Part shown: one piece after another, positions 6,088 through 52,727 of the stretch
Layout: each line of letters opens with the position of its first letter
How positions within the stretch are numbered: the stretch's first letter is position 1
Program-made: the position numbers and the translations under genes
Notes under the pieces: model-generated
The model's database searches: none
Told to the model about the DNA's origin: nothing
What the model saw: the letters and a program-made list of their open reading frames with translations, nothing else
Assembly (NCBI GenBank): GCA_003554785.1
Contig: PWHG01000057.1
Location: forward strand, 1 to 57,677
Length of the DNA stretch: 57,677 bases
DNA from: Candidatus Falkowiibacteriota bacterium
Lineage (GTDB): Bacteria > Patescibacteriota > Patescibacteriia > Patescibacteriales > UBA12465
Direction of reading: 5' to 3'

Positions 6088-6531
6088 TTAGAGTGGAAGT
6101 TGTGGGTCAGCATAATGTTGATACCCTTCTACGATTGCTTCTAATCTTCTGAGGATAAAGTAACTAACTCCCCACGAAGTGGCCACTATAACTAAACCAA
6201 TAATTGCGTTTTTAATTCTATCTTTGGCTTTTTTAGTATTTTCCTGATTTCCACCTGAGGTCATCCACTGAAAACCAGATATAATTACTAAAACTAAGAA
6301 AATAATCGATAGAAACATTAAAACTACATTGATTATTCTAACAACAATTATTCTTGGATCTTGTGGTTCACTGTCTCCATAACCTACATCGGTAGCCTGT
6401 TCAAAAACATCCTGCTCTAAGTGGCTCGTTTGAGCATAAACTACAGAAAAACTAGAAAAGACTAAAAATTTAAAAGATAAAATCATTAACAATAACAAGA
6501 AAGCAAAAAAATGCTTTTTAAAATTTTTCAT
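6088..6531 (-). CDS. Type IV secretion pilin-like membrane protein (TrbC/VirB2-like)
   Basis: This 147-residue protein belongs to the small two-helix 'T4SS pilin' family abundant in CPR genomes. It has an N-terminal signal-like helix (about 10-33, ending VYAQ), a short soluble segment, helix 1 (about 63-88), a polar loop with the signature WMTSGGNQEN (89-98), and helix 2 (about 109-127). It is a distant copy of the seven-gene array at 45-48 kb and of the protein at 52.3 kb, but stands alone and is divergent to a pseudouridine synthase gene. Function in DNA uptake, secretion or surface filaments is inference from family membership. Confidence 0.8.
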   Translation of the reverse strand: MKNFKKHFFAFLLLLMILSFKFLVFSSFSVVYAQTSHLEQDVFEQATDVGYGDSEPQDPRIIVVRIINVVLMFLSIIFLVLVIISGFQWMTSGGNQENTKKAKDRIKNAIIGLVIVATSWGVSYFILRRLEAIVEGYQHYADPQLPL

Positions 6532-32061: not shown

Positions 32062-33174
32062 TTATTGTCTAATTGGCATTATTATATATAGGTAATTTTT
32101 TTCTTGTTTATTTTTTAATAAACAAGGTGTTTGTGGATCTATTAACTTTACAATTACATTTTCACTAGATAAATTATTTAAACCATCTAGTAAGTACCGA
32201 TAATTAACTGTTATATCATTTTTTTCACCTGTTATATTAGCTGGTAAGTTTATGTTTGTTTCTCCACTTTGACCAGAAGAAGAACTTATTATTACCTGTT
32301 TATCATCAACAACTATCATTACATCATTTATTCCGGTTTTAGTAAAAAGTGATGATGCTTTTATAGCTCTAATTAATTCTTCTTTATTTAATTCTACTTC
32401 AGTAGAATATTTATTAGGTATTATTTGTTTATAGTCAGGATAATTTCCATTTATTAATCTTGAAACTATGTTTACAGAATCAAAATCAAAAAGAATTTGA
32501 TTTTCAGAAAGACAGATTTTAATATCTTCTTTTTCATTATTAACAAAAGTATTTAATATTCTTAAAAGTTCTTGAATTGTTTTAATAGGAACAATTACTT
32601 TTTTATCTTTTAAATTATTTTTTTTAACTTCTATTGTTTTTTCTGCTAAACGGTAACTATCTGTAGCCGCTAAAGTTAAGTTATTATCATTAAAATCAAA
32701 CAATACACCTGACAGTTCAGGACGATTATCACCAACGGCAGCAGAAAATGATACTTTAGTTAAAATATCTTTAAAAGTAGATATATCTAATAAACAATAT
32801 TTATCTTCTTTTATTAAGGGTATTAAAGGAAAGTCTTTTGTTGTTTCACCTTTAATTTTAGTTTTATAATTATCACATTTAATTGATAAATTTTCATCTT
32901 TTTTTTCTATAGAAACTTTTTCCCCTGGTAATAAATTAATATAATCATTTATTATTTTTGACTCAACTGTATATTCACCTTCCTTTTCAACTTTACTCCT
33001 AAATTTATGAATTATTCCAATTTCTAAATTTGTACTAATTAATTCTACCTCATTACTTTTATGAGTTCTAATTAATATATTATTAAGAATAGGTAAATTA
33101 ATATTTTTTACACTTACATTTCCTACAATATTTAATCCTTTTTTTAAGTTGTCTTGTAAGCTTATAAATTTCAT
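32062..33174 (-). CDS. dnaN: DNA polymerase III subunit beta (sliding clamp)
   Basis: The beta clamp encircles DNA and tethers polymerase III. The 370-residue product shows three repeated clamp domains and the typical VKNINLPILNNILI opening, LSGVLFDF in the second and a C-terminal IMPIRQ matching the family's MP-R ending. It is downstream of dnaA with a 220-nt gap, the classic origin-linked arrangement. Confidence 0.96.
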   Translation of the reverse strand: MKFISLQDNLKKGLNIVGNVSVKNINLPILNNILIRTHKSNEVELISTNLEIGIIHKFRSKVEKEGEYTVESKIINDYINLLPGEKVSIEKKDENLSIKCDNYKTKIKGETTKDFPLIPLIKEDKYCLLDISTFKDILTKVSFSAAVGDNRPELSGVLFDFNDNNLTLAATDSYRLAEKTIEVKKNNLKDKKVIVPIKTIQELLRILNTFVNNEKEDIKICLSENQILFDFDSVNIVSRLINGNYPDYKQIIPNKYSTEVELNKEELIRAIKASSLFTKTGINDVMIVVDDKQVIISSSSGQSGETNINLPANITGEKNDITVNYRYLLDGLNNLSSENVIVKLIDPQTPCLLKNKQEKNYLYIIMPIRQ

Positions 33175-33394
33175 ATGTTTTTTTATTTAATATATATAAA
33201 ACAATAATAACAATAAGACCTGGGGAAATGTTGATAACTAAATTTTAGTTAATTAATTAGGGCTTATTTTTTATTATTAACTGTTAATTGTCATGTTAAT
33301 AAATAATCTATAAATATGTGGATAAATAATTAATTTTATTTTATTAACATTTAATGAACAAATTATTAACTCTCAATTAACAAGTTATCAATAA
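33175..33394. other. Candidate replication origin (oriC) between dnaA and dnaN
   Basis: A 220-nt gap, very AT-rich. It contains a perfect DnaA box TTATCCACA on the minus strand (33317-33325), a near box TTATCAACA (complement of 33232-33240 region) and TTATCAATA close to the dnaA stop (33383-33391). Together with the gene order rpmH-dnaA-dnaN this supports an origin. Box number is low, so the active origin may also include the dnaA-rpmH gap. Confidence 0.55.
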
Positions 33395-34768
33395 CTAATT
33401 ATTAATTAATTGTTTAATAGATTCAACTTCTTGTTTCACTCTTTCATTATTATTTTCTTTTATCTCTTTGTTAATCTTATTATAAGCATGCATAGCGGTT
33501 GTATGATCTCTACCTCCCATTGCCTCTCCAATACCTGGGTATGATGATTGTAATTCTTCTCTTATTAAAAATATAGCAATTTGTCTTGGCCAAACTAATT
33601 CTTTTTTTCTTCCAACACCAGTTAATTCTTTATAATTGAGTTCATAAAATTTTGCTACTGCTTCTATAATTTCTTTAGGGGAGAGAGATTTGGTTTGAAT
33701 ATTTGAAACATAATCTCCTAAAACTTGTTTTACGCTTTTAAGATCTGGTGAAGTTTCACGCATTTGATGCCATACAATAATTTTATTTAAAGCACCTTCT
33801 AATTCTCTTATATTATTTTTAATATTGTTAGCTATATAATTAACTATTTCTTCATTTAAAGAATAATTTTTTTCTTTCAATTTAGTTTCAATAATAGCTA
33901 TTTTGGTTTCAATATCAGGTTTTCCCACGTCAGCAACCATTCCTGATTCAAATCTGGAAATTAGACGTTTTTCAATAGCAGGAATTGATTTTGGTGGTCT
34001 ATCAGATGTTAGAACAATTTGTTTATCACTTTGTTGTAGTTCATTAAAAGTATGGAAAAATTCTTCCTGGGTTCCATCTTTTCCACCCATAAACTGTACA
34101 TCATCAATTAATAATAAATCAACTTTACGATAAACATTTTTAAATTCTTTAGCTTTACCGGTGTGAACTGCTTGAATATAATTATTAGTAAATTTTTCAC
34201 TAGTAGTATATAAAACTTTATTAGTTTGTTTTATTATTTCATTACCAATTGCCTGAAGTAGATGTGTTTTTCCTAAACCAACACCACCATAAATAAAAAG
34301 CGGGTTATAAGACTTTCCTAGGTCTTTAACTACCGCTTGACAGGCTGCATAAGCTAATTCATTCCCTTTACCGACTATAAAAGTTTCAAATAAATATTTT
34401 GGATTTAAACCGAATTTTCCATTAGTGTTATTTTTATTAATATTAATATTTATTTTTTTATTTTCTGGTACTGATTCTTTTTCAATACCTAATATTTTTT
34501 CATTTGAATTATTAACTTTTTTTAATTCTACTTTATAAATTACTTCATTTATTTTTTTTTCTGTTATTCTTTCAAGAGAACTTAATATATTTTTATGATA
34601 TTTTTCTTCTAACCATTTTTTTACAAAAGCGCTTGGAACACCAATAACAACTTTATCATCATTAATTGAATCAAGAAAAGTGTCTTTAAACCATGTATTG
34701 AAATTTATCCTTGATAGGTTAACTTCAATTTCTCCTAAAACTGCTTCCCAAATTTGATCATTATTCAT
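33395..34768 (-). CDS. dnaA: Chromosomal replication initiator DnaA
   Basis: DnaA binds origin boxes and melts DNA to start replication. The 457-residue product has domain I (1-90, interaction), a low-complexity linker (about 95-120, Asn/Lys-rich), the AAA+ domain with Walker A GGVGLGKTH and Walker B LLIDDVQF, and domain IV with the DnaA signature GGRDHTTAMHAYNKI for box binding. It is divergent from rpmH across 181 nt and has a good promoter. Confidence 0.97.
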   Translation of the reverse strand: MNNDQIWEAVLGEIEVNLSRINFNTWFKDTFLDSINDDKVVIGVPSAFVKKWLEEKYHKNILSSLERITEKKINEVIYKVELKKVNNSNEKILGIEKESVPENKKINININKNNTNGKFGLNPKYLFETFIVGKGNELAYAACQAVVKDLGKSYNPLFIYGGVGLGKTHLLQAIGNEIIKQTNKVLYTTSEKFTNNYIQAVHTGKAKEFKNVYRKVDLLLIDDVQFMGGKDGTQEEFFHTFNELQQSDKQIVLTSDRPPKSIPAIEKRLISRFESGMVADVGKPDIETKIAIIETKLKEKNYSLNEEIVNYIANNIKNNIRELEGALNKIIVWHQMRETSPDLKSVKQVLGDYVSNIQTKSLSPKEIIEAVAKFYELNYKELTGVGRKKELVWPRQIAIFLIREELQSSYPGIGEAMGGRDHTTAMHAYNKINKEIKENNNERVKQEVESIKQLINN

Positions 34769-34794
34769 ATAAAAGTAATTTATTTTCTTTTTAT

Positions 34795-34823
34795 ATTATA
34801 GAGAATAAATATAGAATAAACAA
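34795..34823 (-). promoter_or_regulatory. Promoter of dnaA
   Basis: Minus strand TTGTTT (34818-34823), a 17-nt spacer, and TATAAT (34795-34800). The start lies about 20 nt before the ATG. The rest of the 181-nt dnaA-rpmH gap holds the rpmH promoter (TTGACC near 34894) and no gene. Confidence 0.7.
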
Positions 34824-34949
34824 GGGTGGTATATGTTCAAAAGATGTTAATAAAAAGGGGATAAGTTTTGAAATAATGGTTTTATAAAAGATTGACCAAT
34901 AAAAATAATCGTGATAATCTTATTTTAGTTTAAATAGTAATAGATATAT

Positions 34950-35087
34950 ATGCCGAAAAGAACTTATCAGCCTAATAATAGAAAAGCCCAAAAAAAGCAT
35001 GGATTTAGAAAAAGAATGAGTACTCAAGTGGGTAGGGCGATTATAAAAAAAAGGCGACAAAGACAAAGAAAGAAGTTAACTAAATAA
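34950..35087 (+). CDS. rpmH: 50S ribosomal protein L34
   Basis: A 45-residue, strongly basic ribosomal protein beginning [12 protein letters not shown] and containing the family block [18 protein letters not shown], then a K/R-rich tail. It lies just upstream of rnpA (11-nt gap) and divergent from dnaA, exactly as in most bacterial origin regions. Confidence 0.97.
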
Positions 35088-35098
35088 TCATTTGGCAA

Positions 35099-35440
35099 AT
35101 GTTGCCCCAAAAAAATCGACTAAAACTAAATAGCGATTTTTCTAAATTATTTAAAACCGGCCATAGTAATTATGGGCGGTTTATTGGAGTGAAAATAAAA
35201 GAAAATAATGAAGAACTAAATAAGTATGCCGTTGTAGTAAGCAATAAAATAAATAAAAGTGCTGTTAGAAGAAATTATATTAAGAGAAAAATAAAAGAGA
35301 AAATAAGAGAAATAGATAAAAGTTGTAAAAAAGGATTTAATTGTGTTATTATAGTTTTATCAGATATAAAAGAAGATGATTATTTAGAAGTAAAAAAAGA
35401 AATAATTAAAATTTTTACTAAATTAAAAATTATAAATTAA
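35099..35440 (+). CDS. rnpA: Ribonuclease P protein component
   Basis: The protein subunit that aids the RNase P RNA in tRNA 5' maturation. The 113-residue product has the opening [13 protein letters not shown] and the RNR-like segment [16 protein letters not shown] near 60. The family RNR motif is slightly changed to RRN. It is 11 nt after rpmH and 1 nt before yidD. Confidence 0.93.
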
Positions 35441-35441
35441 A

Positions 35442-35699
35442 ATGAAAAATCCATTTCGATATTATCCGCGTTATCTAGTAATTTTTATTATAAAAATATA
35501 TCAAAAAACATTATCTTTTGACCATGGACCACTTAAATTATTTTACCCCCATGGCTTATGCCGTTTTGCGCCAACTTGCTCTGAGTACGGTATTAAAGCA
35601 GTAGAAAAATACGGTATTTTTAAAGGTGGTTTTTTAACTGTTAAAAGAATTATAAAATGTAATCCATTTAATAAAGGTGGCCACGATCCTGTGCCTTAA
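35442..35699 (+). CDS. yidD: Membrane protein insertion efficiency factor YidD
   Basis: An 85-residue protein that supports YidC in membrane insertion. The signature [17 protein letters not shown] (about 45-61) and [18 protein letters not shown] near the end are typical, with a short N-terminal amphipathic helix. It is longer than average because of its N-terminal extension. It lies 1 nt after rnpA, and its stop is 10 nt before the likely yidC start. Confidence 0.95.
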
Positions 35700-35709
35700 T
35701 CAAATCTAT

Positions 35710-36477
35710 ATGATACAATTTATTCTGCAAATATTTCACGTCTTATTTTTTCAACCAATTTTAAATTTATTAGTTTTTCTTTATAGTACAATATCTTTTC
35801 AAGATTTAGGTATAGCTATAATTCTTTTAACTATAATTATTAAAGCTGTCCTTTTCCCTTTATCTAAAAAATCAATAAAAATTCAAAAGTCAATGCAAGA
35901 GATTCAGCCAGAAATTGAAGAAATAAAGAAAAAATATAAAGACAATAAAGAAGAGCAAGGGAAAGCTTTAATGCAGTTATATAAAGATAAGAAAGTAAAT
36001 CCATTCTCTTCATGTTTACCCCTTTTAATTCAACTTCCCTTCTTAATCGCTGTATTTAGAGTATTTCGTAGTGGAGTAGATGAAAACTTAGATTTAGTTT
36101 ATCCATTTTTAAGTGATTTTCAACCTGAAAGTATAGATTATTTAGCTTTTGGTTTTTTTAATTTAGAAACACCAAGTATTGTAATGGCAGCATTAGCAGC
36201 CGGTGCTCAATTTTGGCAAGCTAAAATGATGTTGAAACGAAAAAAGAAAACAAAAGTAGTTACAAATTCTGATGATAAAGAAAATAAATCGGAAGGTATG
36301 GCAGAGATGATGAGCAAACAAATGCTTTATTTCATGCCTGTTATTACTATTATAATTGGTTCACAACTACCCGGCGGTTTAACTCTTTATTGGTTAGTAG
36401 TAACTTTATTAACAGGACTACAACAGCTCTATATATTTAAACAAACTAATCAAAGTGAAGAAATAAAAAAAGCATAA
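35710..36477 (+). CDS. yidC: Membrane insertase YidC/Oxa1
   Basis: YidC inserts and folds membrane proteins. The start at 35710 (255 residues) is chosen because an upstream in-frame ATG at 35677 lies within yidD and would add 11 atypical residues. The Oxa1-type core is visible: LLTIIIKAVLFPLSKKS, a basic coiled loop (60-95), and PFSSCLPLLIQLPFLIAVFRVF. Five hydrophobic helices fit the Gram-positive/Oxa1 layout without the large periplasmic domain of proteobacteria. It is the last gene of rpmH-rnpA-yidD-yidC. Confidence 0.93.
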   Translation: MIQFILQIFHVLFFQPILNLLVFLYSTISFQDLGIAIILLTIIIKAVLFPLSKKSIKIQKSMQEIQPEIEEIKKKYKDNKEEQGKALMQLYKDKKVNPFSSCLPLLIQLPFLIAVFRVFRSGVDENLDLVYPFLSDFQPESIDYLAFGFFNLETPSIVMAALAAGAQFWQAKMMLKRKKKTKVVTNSDDKENKSEGMAEMMSKQMLYFMPVITIIIGSQLPGGLTLYWLVVTLLTGLQQLYIFKQTNQSEEIKKA

Positions 36478-45225: not shown

Positions 45226-45253
45226 AAAAGCGCTAAAAATATTTAGCGCTTTT
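45226..45253. terminator. Bidirectional terminator
   Basis: AAAAGCGCTAAA (45226-45237) pairs with TTTAGCGCTTTT (45242-45253). It lies between the lipoprotein (plus) and the end of the pilin array (minus). Confidence 0.9.
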
Positions 45254-45277: not shown

Positions 45278-45700
45278 TTATGGTCCTCCACTTGCTCCTC
45301 CTCCACTACCCATGCCAAATCCAGCAAACATCTCAAGTTGGTTGAATACAAACCAGGTAATCGCATAGGCAGCTAAGACTATAATTAACCCAATAACAGC
45401 ATCTTTTAGAGACTTTGAGGCTTTAGTAACTGTTTCTTGGTTTCCTCCAGCAGTCATCCATTTAAAGCCAGCTATAATAACTAAAATAAGGAAAATAGTT
45501 GCCAGGAATGATAAAACTAATTGAATTATAAAGCCAATAGTTACTCCAATTGGCACATTGCTAACCCCGGCTCCCTCTCTAACGTTTCCGACATGGCTAT
45601 CCATTATTTCCCCTAAACTACCATTACTTTCTGCCTTAAGAAATATTGTTGGAAAAAACAATATGTTTATAAAATAAAATAATTTAGCTAAAATTTTCAT
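45278..45700 (-). CDS. Pilin-like membrane protein 7 of the array, Gly-rich tail
   Basis: The last of seven tandem paralogues (140 residues). A signal-like helix (about 5-22), a soluble segment with SHVGNVREGAGVSN, helix 1 (about 53-80), the loop WMTAGGNQET (81-90), then helix 2 (about 101-119). It alone has a Gly/Ser-rich tail (GFGMGSGGGASGGP). The Trp-Met-Thr and Gly-Asn-x-Glu loop residues are shared with the others. Family: T4SS pilin/TrbC-like. Confidence 0.82.
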   Translation of the reverse strand: MKILAKLFYFINILFFPTIFLKAESNGSLGEIMDSHVGNVREGAGVSNVPIGVTIGFIIQLVLSFLATIFLILVIIAGFKWMTAGGNQETVTKASKSLKDAVIGLIIVLAAYAITWFVFNQLEMFAGFGMGSGGGASGGP

Positions 45701-45704
45701 ATAT

Positions 45705-46115
45705 TTAAATATTACTTAACCAAAGATTAACAATTATACCCCATATACCCCAAGAGCTAACTACTATGATAAGGCCTATAATTGCTTGGGTTAAAATGGA
45801 TTTTGCTTTAGCAACTTCTTCTTCGTTTCCTTGAGCAGTCATCCAGCGAATACCGGAATAAATAGATAAAGCAAGAAAGATAACTGATAAAAGACCTAAA
45901 ACGCCATTAATTAATAAAGCAACAGTATCCATAACTGTGTTAGTGTCAGTATCAGCACTATATGGACCATCATCACCAGAAGCAATATTTTCTAGAAAAG
46001 ACATAGGTCCTTGATTATCTGTTACTTCTTGCTGTCCAAAAACAAAAAACGGGAGGGTTAAAAAAATAATAATAATCAATAAGGCAAAAAAGTTGAGAGT
46101 GATTATGTTTTTCAT
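45705..46115 (-). CDS. Pilin-like membrane protein 6 of the array
   Basis: 136 residues. A signal helix (about 9-27, ending VFGQ), an acidic segment (28-62, DGPYSADTDTNT), helix 1 (about 63-88), the loop WMTAQGNEEEVAKAK (91-105) and helix 2 (about 111-130). It starts 6 nt after protein 5 and ends 4 nt before protein 7. Divergence from its neighbours outside the loop suggests separate roles rather than recent duplicates. Confidence 0.82.
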   Translation of the reverse strand: MKNIITLNFFALLIIIIFLTLPFFVFGQQEVTDNQGPMSFLENIASGDDGPYSADTDTNTVMDTVALLINGVLGLLSVIFLALSIYSGIRWMTAQGNEEEVAKAKSILTQAIIGLIIVVSSWGIWGIIVNLWLSNI

Positions 46116-46121
46116 AGTATG

Positions 46122-46568
46122 TTAAAATTGATTAATTATTTGTAAAATTAAAGCCCAAAAACCCCAAGAGACAGCGACAATAAAAATTCCAATAATACTT
46201 TGTTTTAAAGCTGACTTGGCTTTAGTAACTTGTTCTTCATTACCAGCAGCGGTCATCCAGCGAATACCGGAGATAATAGTTAAAATTACAAAAACAACTC
46301 CTAGTATTGAAAGTAGCGCGTTTATTAAAGTACTAACAATACCAGATAAAAGATCATCTTCTTCGACAGGATCAGTTTTAAAGCCACTTTCCTCAGCTAT
46401 TTCTTCAACGGTTGAGCCTTCCCCAAAAGAATCTTGTAAACTTCTTGTTTCATTTGTTTGATTTAGATCATCTTGATCTTCATTGTCTTGAGAAAAAGCA
46501 AGGATGGGAAAAAATAAAAAAAGACAAGAAAGTAGTGTTAAAATTATTTTTTTATTATTTTTAAACAT
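46122..46568 (-). CDS. Pilin-like membrane protein 5 of the array, long acidic ectodomain
   Basis: 148 residues, the longest of the array. The signal helix (about 7-25) is followed by an acidic stretch of about 45 residues (26-72), then helix 1 (about 76-102), the loop WMTAAGNEEQVTKAK (104-118) and helix 2 (about 124-141). The acidic segment is expected to be extracytoplasmic. It starts 4 nt after the gene before it. Confidence 0.82.
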   Translation of the reverse strand: MFKNNKKIILTLLSCLFLFFPILAFSQDNEDQDDLNQTNETRSLQDSFGEGSTVEEIAEESGFKTDPVEEDDLLSGIVSTLINALLSILGVVFVILTIISGIRWMTAAGNEEQVTKAKSALKQSIIGIFIVAVSWGFWALILQIINQF

Positions 46569-46572
46569 AAAG

Positions 46573-46971
46573 TTATTCGATTTGACTGACGGGATCTTGC
46601 CAGGTTATATCAAGGATAAATTCAAGAATTAAATAAGTAATAGCATAAGCTGCAACTACAATAATTAAGCCAATTAAAGAATCAATAATTATTTTTTTAG
46701 CTTTATTTACTTTCTCATCATTTCCCTGAGCTAACATCCAATTTATACCACCATATATGATAAGAATCATAAAAATAACTCCAACTAAACTAAGAACTAA
46801 GGTAATATTTCTAGATAAAGTTTCTTCTATTGTATTTTCCTGAGATTCTAAATCGTAACCAGCAGGTCCAGCGGTGTCACTTAAACCGCTATCATCTATA
46901 AAATCATAAGCAAAAACAGAAGTAGTAAATGAAAAAATAATTATAAAAAGGGAGACAATAAGATATCGCAT
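46573..46971 (-). CDS. Pilin-like membrane protein 4 of the array
   Basis: 132 residues. A signal helix (1-20, ending VFAY), helix 1 (about 54-76), the loop WMLAQGNDEKVNKAK (78-92) and helix 2 (about 97-119). Here the Thr of the WMT motif is Leu. It lies 8 nt after protein 3. Confidence 0.82.
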   Translation of the reverse strand: MRYLIVSLFIIIFSFTTSVFAYDFIDDSGLSDTAGPAGYDLESQENTIEETLSRNITLVLSLVGVIFMILIIYGGINWMLAQGNDEKVNKAKKIIIDSLIGLIIVVAAYAITYLILEFILDITWQDPVSQIE

Positions 46972-46979
46972 AAATTATT

Positions 46980-47378
46980 TTAATTAATCAGTTGCTCGCC
47001 AATAAAAGAGGTTATAACATAAGCCCCTAAAACAACAATTAAACCTAAAGTTGCATTAATCATTAAACTTCTAGCTTTTTTAACTTGTTCTTGATTACCT
47101 CCGGCTGTCATCCAAGTTAAGCCAGCATAGATCATTAATATTAAAAATAACACACCTACAAAAGATAAGATAAAGCCAACAATTTGGCCAGTTCTGGTTT
47201 GTAAAAAATTATCTTCTTGTTCATCAACTTGATCTTCAAAAGGATCAATGTGTCCAGCGGTTGTATTTAAACCATAACCAGAATCAGCAGGATTTTCACT
47301 TAAAGCCATATTTCCATTAAATAAAAATAAAGAGAAGATAAAAATAGGAAATATTAATTTTAAAAATTTGAAATTCAT
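46980..47378 (-). CDS. Pilin-like membrane protein 3 of the array
   Basis: 132 residues. A signal helix (about 6-25), a soluble segment with acidic EDQVDEQED (48-56), helix 1 (about 64-87), loop WMTAGGNQEQVKKAR (89-103) and helix 2 (about 107-126). It starts 10 nt after protein 2. Confidence 0.82.
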   Translation of the reverse strand: MNFKFLKLIFPIFIFSLFLFNGNMALSENPADSGYGLNTTAGHIDPFEDQVDEQEDNFLQTRTGQIVGFILSFVGVLFLILMIYAGLTWMTAGGNQEQVKKARSLMINATLGLIVVLGAYVITSFIGEQLIN

Positions 47379-47388
47379 AAATATAAAA

Positions 47389-47766
47389 CTAAGGCCAAGT
47401 CGTTATATCTGCAACTTGAGTTATAACAAATGTGCTGATTCCCCATGAAAGTAAAATAATAATTAAACCAATCAAACCGGCTATTAAAATCTTTTTTGCT
47501 TGACCAACTTGCTCTTGATTACCACCTGAAGTCATCCATTTAAAGCCACCAACTAAAACAACAACAACAGAAATAATACCTAAAAAAGTTAAAACCAAAT
47601 TTATTATTTTAACAGTAACTACCCTCGGGTCTTCGTTGCTAAGATGAATATTTCCTTCTTCAATCATATCAGTACCAAGTCTATCTGCTAGTACTAAGGT
47701 AGGGGTAATTAAAAAAACTAAAAAAGAAATTATTAAAATTAATTTAGATATTTTATTATTTAACAT
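47389..47766 (-). CDS. Pilin-like membrane protein 2 of the array
   Basis: 125 residues. A signal helix (about 7-27, ending VLAD), a short soluble part, helix 1 (about 51-76), loop WMTSGGNQEQVGQAK (77-91) and helix 2 (about 95-116). It shares the segment NEDPRVVTVKIINLVLTFLG with the lone copy at 6.1 kb (QDPRIIVVRIINVVLMFLS), so the two are close relatives. Confidence 0.82.
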   Translation of the reverse strand: MLNNKISKLILIISFLVFLITPTLVLADRLGTDMIEEGNIHLSNEDPRVVTVKIINLVLTFLGIISVVVVLVGGFKWMTSGGNQEQVGQAKKILIAGLIGLIIILLSWGISTFVITQVADITTWP

Positions 47767-47780
47767 AATTTACATATAAC

Positions 47781-47843
47781 ACTGCCTGAGGCGCCAATTT
47801 TGATGCCCCAGACAGTGGTTCCCAACTAAATTATTTGAGAACC
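47781..47843 (-). promoter_or_regulatory. Double hairpin between pilin genes 1 and 2
   Basis: Two stems in the 83-nt gap on the minus strand. One pairs 12 bases (47781-47792 with 47805-47816). The other pairs seven (47817-47823 with 47837-47843). Neither has a T-run, so they look like mRNA stability or partial termination elements rather than a full terminator. Confidence 0.6.
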
Positions 47844-47849
47844 ATTGAT

Positions 47850-48230
47850 TTATTGAGCAAGGTCAGGGATTGTTGTTAAAACCCAAGTACTAATACCCCA
47901 AGCTAGTAGAACAATCACTAAACCAATTAAACCTCCTATTAATAATTTTTTAGCTGCTCCAACTTTTTCTTCATTTCCACCGGCGGTCATCCATTTAAAG
48001 CCACCAATTAAGACAATCACAACTGCTACTAAACCTAAAAAGGATAGCACTAGGTTTATAATACCAACAGCTGCACTCCTTGGTTCTACATTTCCATCTA
48101 ATTCTAAGTTACCCATTGCTGGATCATTAATGCCATAAGGATCATCACTTTGAGCATTAGAAATGGCTGGTGCTAATAGTAAAGCAAATAGAGACATGAC
48201 TAACATTCCTTTTATTAATTTTTTAATCAT
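47850..48230 (-). CDS. Pilin-like membrane protein 1 of the array (probable major product)
   Basis: 126 residues. A signal helix (about 7-26, ending SNAQ), a short segment, helix 1 (about 53-78), loop WMTAGGNEEKVGAAK (80-94) and helix 2 (about 98-117). It alone has a strong Shine-Dalgarno sequence (AAAGGTGGTGA, 48237-48247 complement), and is separated from gene 2 by two hairpins. This suggests the highest expression of the seven, as for a major pilin subunit; that is inference. It has a possible promoter TTGTTA-17-TAAAAT further upstream. Confidence 0.85.
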   Translation of the reverse strand: MIKKLIKGMLVMSLFALLLAPAISNAQSDDPYGINDPAMGNLELDGNVEPRSAAVGIINLVLSFLGLVAVVIVLIGGFKWMTAGGNEEKVGAAKKLLIGGLIGLVIVLLAWGISTWVLTTIPDLAQ

Positions 48231-52331: not shown

Positions 52332-52727
52332 TTATATATTAATGAAACTTCCATCCCAATCTACATTTAAAGCGCTCAATACAAAACTAATTATTAAAAA
52401 ACTTGTGAATACAATAATTAAGCCAATAACAGCAGCTTTAATAATTCCCTTAGCTTTGTTTACTTGTTCTGTGTTGCCAGATGAAAGCAAAAACATAAGT
52501 CCACCATAAATAAAAAATAGCAAAGCTAAAGATCCAACAAAACGTAAAATTAGATCTGAGGCTCTTATTATCAACTCAACAAAATCATTAAGCTTATAAT
52601 CACCAGTTTCATAAGCAGAGCCGTTTTTTCTTTCTGGTGTTATTAATGATTGTGCACTACTAATATTTGCTATAAATAAAAATAGATAGGATATTATTAG
52701 CTTGACACTATATTTTATAATTTTCAT
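52332..52727 (-). CDS. Pilin-like membrane protein (ninth copy in the window)
   Basis: 131 residues with a signal-like helix (about 8-25), helix 1 (about 55-80), loop FLLSSGNTEQVNKAK (81-95) and helix 2 (about 99-122). The Trp-Met of the array loop is replaced by Phe-Leu, but Gly-Asn-x-Glu-x-Val-x-x-Ala-Lys is kept. It lies 2 nt after the solute-binding lipoprotein and 2 nt before the RodZ-like gene. Confidence 0.78.
   Translation of the reverse strand: MKIIKYSVKLIISYLFLFIANISSAQSLITPERKNGSAYETGDYKLNDFVELIIRASDLILRFVGSLALLFFIYGGLMFLLSSGNTEQVNKAKGIIKAAVIGLIIVFTSFLIISFVLSALNVDWDGSFINI

Follow-up and report, generated by a model that had tools for sequence, protein, structure and literature searches.

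Position-specific gene classes and a structured intercistronic RNA in a tandem pilin-like array of a Falkowiibacteriota bacterium

How uncultured Patescibacteria make contact with their hosts and exploit them is largely unexplained, and a pilin array of this type is among the few parts that have been shown to be essential. Seven pilin-like open reading frames (ORFs) of 125-148 residues follow one another in tandem (45278-48230, minus strand) in a 57,677-nucleotide stretch of DNA from Candidatus Falkowiibacteriota bacterium, an ultrasmall organism not yet in culture (GenBank assembly GCA_003554785.1, contig PWHG01000057.1, contig C15 in our numbering; the whole stretch is called the window here). 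Such a row of genes could encode variants that replace one another, the different components of a single mixed filament, or an envelope structure that works without a secretion motor. An initial annotation made from the sequence had noted the seven ORFs and two further copies at 6088 and 52332, and had proposed that the set may build a filament or envelope complex of several subunit types. We find that the positions of the array correspond mostly to old orthologue classes and that a covarying RNA element sits behind its first gene. If the subunits are fixed and their ratio is set, the array would represent no antigenic library but a machine of defined composition, in which a role could be given to each part in turn.

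The nine copies in the window are homologous. They all align with one another (blastp E values of about 1e-8 to 1e-40), which removes the annotation's concern that they might prove unrelated, and every one scores above the curated cut-off of PF18895 (T4SS_pilin), in agreement with its assignment to a type IV secretion system (T4SS) pilin family. Identity to the first array gene is 27-52% across the full alignment; conservation is concentrated in the C-terminal two-helix part and the N-terminal ectodomains diverge, as had also been noted. The loop motif that the annotation took to be common to all copies is broadly shared and is inexact in three of them, with A-S for A-K/R in 45278, T for V in 6088 and F-L for W-M in 52332. 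The array itself is a real pilin array of an already published kind. For Patescibacteria, 441 tandem arrays of VirB2-like pilins with a size range of 2-11 have been described (Quinonero-Coronel et al. 2025, PMC12102498), and antigenic or host variation was suggested for them by analogy with Bartonella and Anaplasma.

The slot test uses 16 six-gene arrays from seven genera, with slots A1 to A6, placed on a main tree of 186 pilin sequences. The slot labels need 9 changes on this tree (minimum 5), compared with 54-70 when labels are shuffled within genomes. On a bootstrapped tree of 103 rows the slot-label count is 11, with pure clades for A1 (100/100), A5 (74/82) and A6 (99/96) and an A2 clade that holds all 16 members plus two foreign rows (89/78). 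Between-genus identity within a slot is 52% for A1, the most conserved, and 42-45% for A2, A3, A5 and A6. Judged from their sequences, most copies thus go back to orthologue classes that are old and tied to a position, and few are recent duplicates. The correspondence is incomplete, since A3 and A4 are mixed in the bootstrapped tree and are not clean orthologue classes, a point that weighs against the single-filament reading given below.

These classes bear directly on the published suggestion (PMC12102498) that such an array is a variation cassette, in which interchangeable VirB2-like pilins are diversified for different hosts or to escape recognition. The strongly divergent ectodomains are compatible with it, as are the duplications of A1 and A5 in the present genome and the behavior of A4, whose between-genus identity (34%) equals the background between different slots. 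However, exchange and turnover would scramble the slots, so fixed slots argue against antigenic variation, and four slots form pure or nearly pure orthologue classes in a fixed order across genera. We therefore consider a variation cassette very unlikely for the array as a whole. It is largely contradicted at the level of the family and may still apply to slot A4.

Hidden Markov models (HMMs) of the slot classes read the present array, from its first gene onward, as A1-A1-A2-A3-A5-A5-A6. The first gene (47850-48230) is assigned to A1 by 31 bits and falls in the A1 clade, and the next (47389-47766) is a second A1-class copy, 51% identical to the first, that blastp, the class HMM and the tree identify as an A1 duplication. 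Class A2 (46980-47378; 55 bits, and the tree) and class A3 (46573-46971; 30 bits, weakly resolved in the bootstrapped tree) follow. Two A5 genes come next (46122-46568 and 45705-46115; class HMM and tree), the first with the longest and most acidic ectodomain of the array, and A6 is last (45278-45700; 39 bits, and its own well-supported clade). Spacing is 4-10 bp from the second gene onward, and the array genes are probably co-transcribed.

The genome is related to Falkowbacteria, with Magasanikbacteria, Uhrbacteria, Kuenenbacteria and Kerfeldbacteria as further relatives. Arrays of this type are present in relatives, and the annotation's worry that related genomes might show only scattered single genes is thus dispelled. 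Most Falkowbacteria-type arrays held out from the class HMMs read A1(A1)-A2-A3-A4-A5-A6. Held-out arrays of Magasanikbacteria and Uhrbacteria mostly read W9-S13-A1 followed by others, and score margins are small in many of the downstream genes, so that A2-A6 are not clearly recognizable outside the family. W9 is the class of the detached gene at 52332-52727 (minus strand; PF18895, tree and class HMM), and S13 is that of a tenth copy outside the window, on contig C13 (52155-52550). Both classes occur within arrays in Magasanikbacteria and Uhrbacteria, where the class-mates of W9 are early array genes. By class membership, then, the detached W9 and S13 copies belong to the array set, and we think it more likely that a longer ancestral array broke up here than that the other lineages gathered these genes together. 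Taken with the tree, the class assignments indicate that most array slots are ancient orthologue classes whose order is kept across the family, which goes beyond the published account as far as we have searched it. In a searchable literature with few papers on this subject, neither the slot orthology nor the RNA element nor the giant proteins described below were mentioned, and this absence does not prove novelty.

Three other arrays and one database record deserve separate mention. A second array in genome G008 (L094, G008:C36:2836-4874) has five divergent pilins that no slot class fits well. Two Magasanikbacteria arrays (L150 and L125) contain 13-15 pilin-domain ORFs, compared with the published range of 2-11 (PMC12102498), and some of their ectodomains are much longer than those here. 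Record JALOQQ010000001 (L130, G021:C76) is titled Planctomycetota and carries a Falkowbacteria-type array, which suggests that the assembly is mislabelled or mis-binned.

The gap behind A1 holds a structured RNA. This intercistronic element fills the 83 bp 3' of the first array gene (47767-47849, minus strand) and consists of two abutting hairpins (47843-47817 and 47816-47781) with folding z scores of -5.6 to -7.9. Gaps in family arrays have a median length of 104 bp behind A1 and 4 bp elsewhere. Among 20 aligned sequences, 24 of 25 pairs have changes on both sides and 90% of cells pair, values that none of 500 shuffles attains. When the partners are slid by 1-3 columns, just 36-48% of cells pair; the structure was derived from the same alignment, and this control is consequently biased in its favor, but the difference is large all the same.

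The element is specific to its position. A covariance model (R1) matches the window at the A1 gap only (other matches have E >= 0.7), and it matches there on both strands because the element is palindromic. In arrays that were left out of model building (L075, L081/L130, L116, L121 and L122) the match is behind A1. Strong folding (z < -3) occurs in 17 of 21 A1-followed gaps in the family and in 26 of 45 outside it. For the remaining gaps, most of which are too short for a hairpin, the corresponding figures are 0 of 74 and 6 of 177. Outside the family, strong hairpins often stand behind A1-class genes, and most are unrecognized by R1. G008 has two A1 copies, and there it is the second that the element follows, with no structure in the gap after the first. 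No Rfam family matches the element. We rejected the possibility that the hairpin is a dispersed repeat, since it occurs at one site in the window and has same-site matches in relatives.

By analogy, the closest known role for this element appears to be selective RNA processing and stabilisation (SRPS), in which stem-loops behind selected genes set subunit ratios (PMC4423207, PMC8219983). As in SRPS operons such as cip-cel (PMC4423207), a stable stem-loop follows one selected gene within an operon for a putative multi-subunit complex. What differs is that the present element consists of two covarying hairpins and keeps to a single place within one family of operons, and its effect on mRNA is predicted from structure and position. 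The element suggests that A1 is an over-produced major pilin, and it marks the probable major pilin in each genome. The same effect on the A1 to A2-A6 ratio could come from a leaky transcription terminator or attenuator, as the position directly 3' of the first gene and the strength of the stems would allow. This alternative concerns a single step and overlaps with the explanation that we favor. No U-tract or T-run follows the stems of the element, in contrast to the terminator-like hairpin and T-run that a consensus scan places directly 3' of the array (45226-45253, minus strand), which makes a plain terminator less likely, and a long covarying double hairpin exceeds what a terminator needs. 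We regard termination or attenuation as rather doubtful. The element yields a simple prediction about the major pilin that RNA-seq can test.

If the array encodes a filament, its putative assembly machinery lies elsewhere in the genome. The annotation had seen no secretion genes near the array, and the window does lack VirB4 and PrgI; the search of the genome that it recommended finds both on contig C1 of the same assembly. The row there comprises orf209, orf882 (with several membrane helices), orf343, orf490, PrgI/VirB3, orf240, VirB4 (PF19044, E = 2e-27) and orf205, and it ends at radA. A homologue of TrsD, which is related to the N-terminal part of VirB4, has been reported at the position that matches orf240, and from its place in the row orf240 is probably a TrsD-like protein. 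The radA/recG context of virB4 has been published for ABY1, which is probably the class concerned here, and is the same in the present genome. The row is conserved in the family, and most of its parts also occur in other families of the class.

Most of these genomes have both pilins and VirB4. PF18895 matches occur in 39 of 39 family genomes (6-18 each) and 144 of 144 sampled class genomes (2-18 each), which supplies the copy count in relatives that the annotation had asked for. The HMM search detects VirB4 in 135 of the 144 class genomes (94%). The negative genomes were examined further by means of another HMM and a protein query, and for PrgI and the TrsD-like protein as well; two were rescued, G110 by a VirB4 fragment and G103 by PrgI and a TrsD-like protein at a contig end. 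In G126, two pilin-domain ORFs lie inside the VirB4 operon.

Several results weigh against a VirB2-type filament. The array on contig C15 does not adjoin virB4 on contig C1. In seven class genomes that have pilins, neither VirB4 nor the TrsD-like protein was detected. Six of these assemblies are fragmented, and the seventh (G161) consists of a single contig (946,732 bases), which has 13 pilin matches and a PrgI match that stays below threshold. Searching the PDB by sequence brings up none of the solved VirB2 or TraA pilins, and PF04956 (TrbC/VirB2) stays below its cut-off, with a best E value of 0.19 among the nine copies and 12.4 bits against 27.9 for the first array protein. Foldseek returns no PDB match at E <= 0.001, although a fold as simple as a hairpin of two helices would not settle the matter. 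Given no sequence match to VirB2 or TraA, a sub-threshold PF04956 score and no fold match, a VirB2-type filament is something that we infer.

The same results would suit proteins that build a complex of the envelope, or a short scaffold in the membrane, independently of a T4SS motor; to call them pilins would then be a misnomer. Retention of pilins in the seven genomes, one of them a single 947-kb contig, the lack of a fold or sequence tie to solved pili and the distance from virB4 all agree with such a scaffold. It is harder to reconcile with VirB4 in 94% of class genomes, with the two pilin-domain ORFs in the VirB4 operon of G126, and with Southlakia epibionticum ML1, where an essential series of pilins forms part of the T4SS cluster (Wang et al. 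2023, PMC10633639). All but one of the seven negative assemblies are, moreover, fragmented. We think a motor-independent scaffold unlikely. As a separate observation, G161:C1 (L168, about 187545-193935) retains a pilin array together with giant pilin-domain proteins.

The closest known counterparts include the published VirB2-like pilin arrays of Patescibacteria. Like them, the present array combines tandem, divergent PF18895 genes of low mutual identity with VirB4, PrgI/VirB3 and a probable TrsD-like protein in the same genome. It differs in that most slots are fixed orthologue classes, an RNA element stands behind A1 and virB4 is not nearby; proximity to virB4 is not required of such arrays and is reported in 1135 of 1948 published assemblies (PMC12102498). 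The array of Southlakia likewise has structurally similar, sequence-divergent pilins, six in number (PMC12857230), but it is located within the T4SS cluster. All nine copies match the Mbov_0395 family of pilin-like proteins from a Mycoplasma integrative and conjugative element (NF045849; best E 5e-11), while the first member, at 30.3 bits, is below the curated cut-off of 40. With VirB2/TrbC/TraA pilins (PF04956) the present proteins share a signal peptide, two helices and a short cytoplasmic-type loop, without significant similarity in sequence or fold. They are not type IV pilins by architecture. Those pilins have a class III prepilin signal and a single N-terminal helix, whereas the present proteins begin with an ordinary hydrophobic stretch and have their two-helix hairpin at the C-terminal end.

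The AlphaFold2 model of the first array protein (pLDDT 83.6) shows, with good confidence, helices at 50-82 and 87-125 with a turn at the conserved G-N. According to this model, the conserved loop is most likely a short turn between two long helices on the cytoplasmic side. Most ectodomains are acidic, and the loop has a slightly basic character (loop charge values for 45705 are excluded because its loop was misplaced in the computation), which is consistent with a hairpin that has both termini outside.

The fixed gene order and the RNA element behind A1 make the array resemble the parts list of one mixed filament more than a set of interchangeable variants. We consider it somewhat probable that the products of the array are subunits of a single heteromeric filament of VirB2-like pilins, which would work with the T4SS core on the other contig and presumably use VirB4 as its motor. 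A1 (47850, with its duplicate at 47389) would be the major pilin, and A2, A3, A5, A6 and the detached W9 (52332) and C13 copies would be minor or position-specific subunits. Each would be exported by Sec and would span the membrane with its two helices; the GN loop would form the turn on the cytoplasmic side, and the acidic ectodomain at the N terminus would face outward. The tandem hairpin would protect or cut off the upstream mRNA, so that A1 is made in excess of A2-A6. The several subunit types that the annotation envisaged are thus borne out to the extent that the copies are mostly position-specific classes, and the filament stays conjectural.

Relatives add a possible further kind of subunit. 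Many family genomes have pilin-matching ORFs of about 830-900 and 1,500-2,400 residues or more, and class members reach 4,681 residues. For two giants of G013 (contig C4; L042:2617-8469 and L042:8511-11201), Pfam places the pilin domain at the N terminus, followed by Big_5 and TIG immunoglobulin-like (Ig-like) domains. The pilin domains of giants fall in the A1 clade together with W8, the class of the detached gene at 6088-6531 (minus strand; PF18895 and tree). Giants were sought in the present genome and not found, in an assembly that is only 82% complete. With their A1-type domain, these proteins could be tip or side adhesins of the filament or else membrane-anchored adhesins, and giant Ig-like proteins with a pilin domain would then be candidate host-binding tips. 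A more tentative proposal, possible in our view though less than an even prospect, is that the filament is class-wide, with at least eight fixed pilin classes (W9, S13 and A1-A6), a subunit ratio set by the new RNA element, and giant adhesins that join as pilin subunits through their A1-like N-terminal domain.

Some minor features of the genome remain. A divergent pilin-domain variant of 265 residues is encoded on another contig of the genome, C54 (L040:9824-10621), between two genes for pyruvate:ferredoxin oxidoreductase-type subunits. A weak match at C13:60599, first taken for a truncated giant, is a polytopic membrane protein that lacks the pilin motif. Within the window, products that read as DnaN, DnaA, RnpA and YidC are encoded at 32062-36477, about 10 kb from the array, which is therefore probably close to the replication origin.

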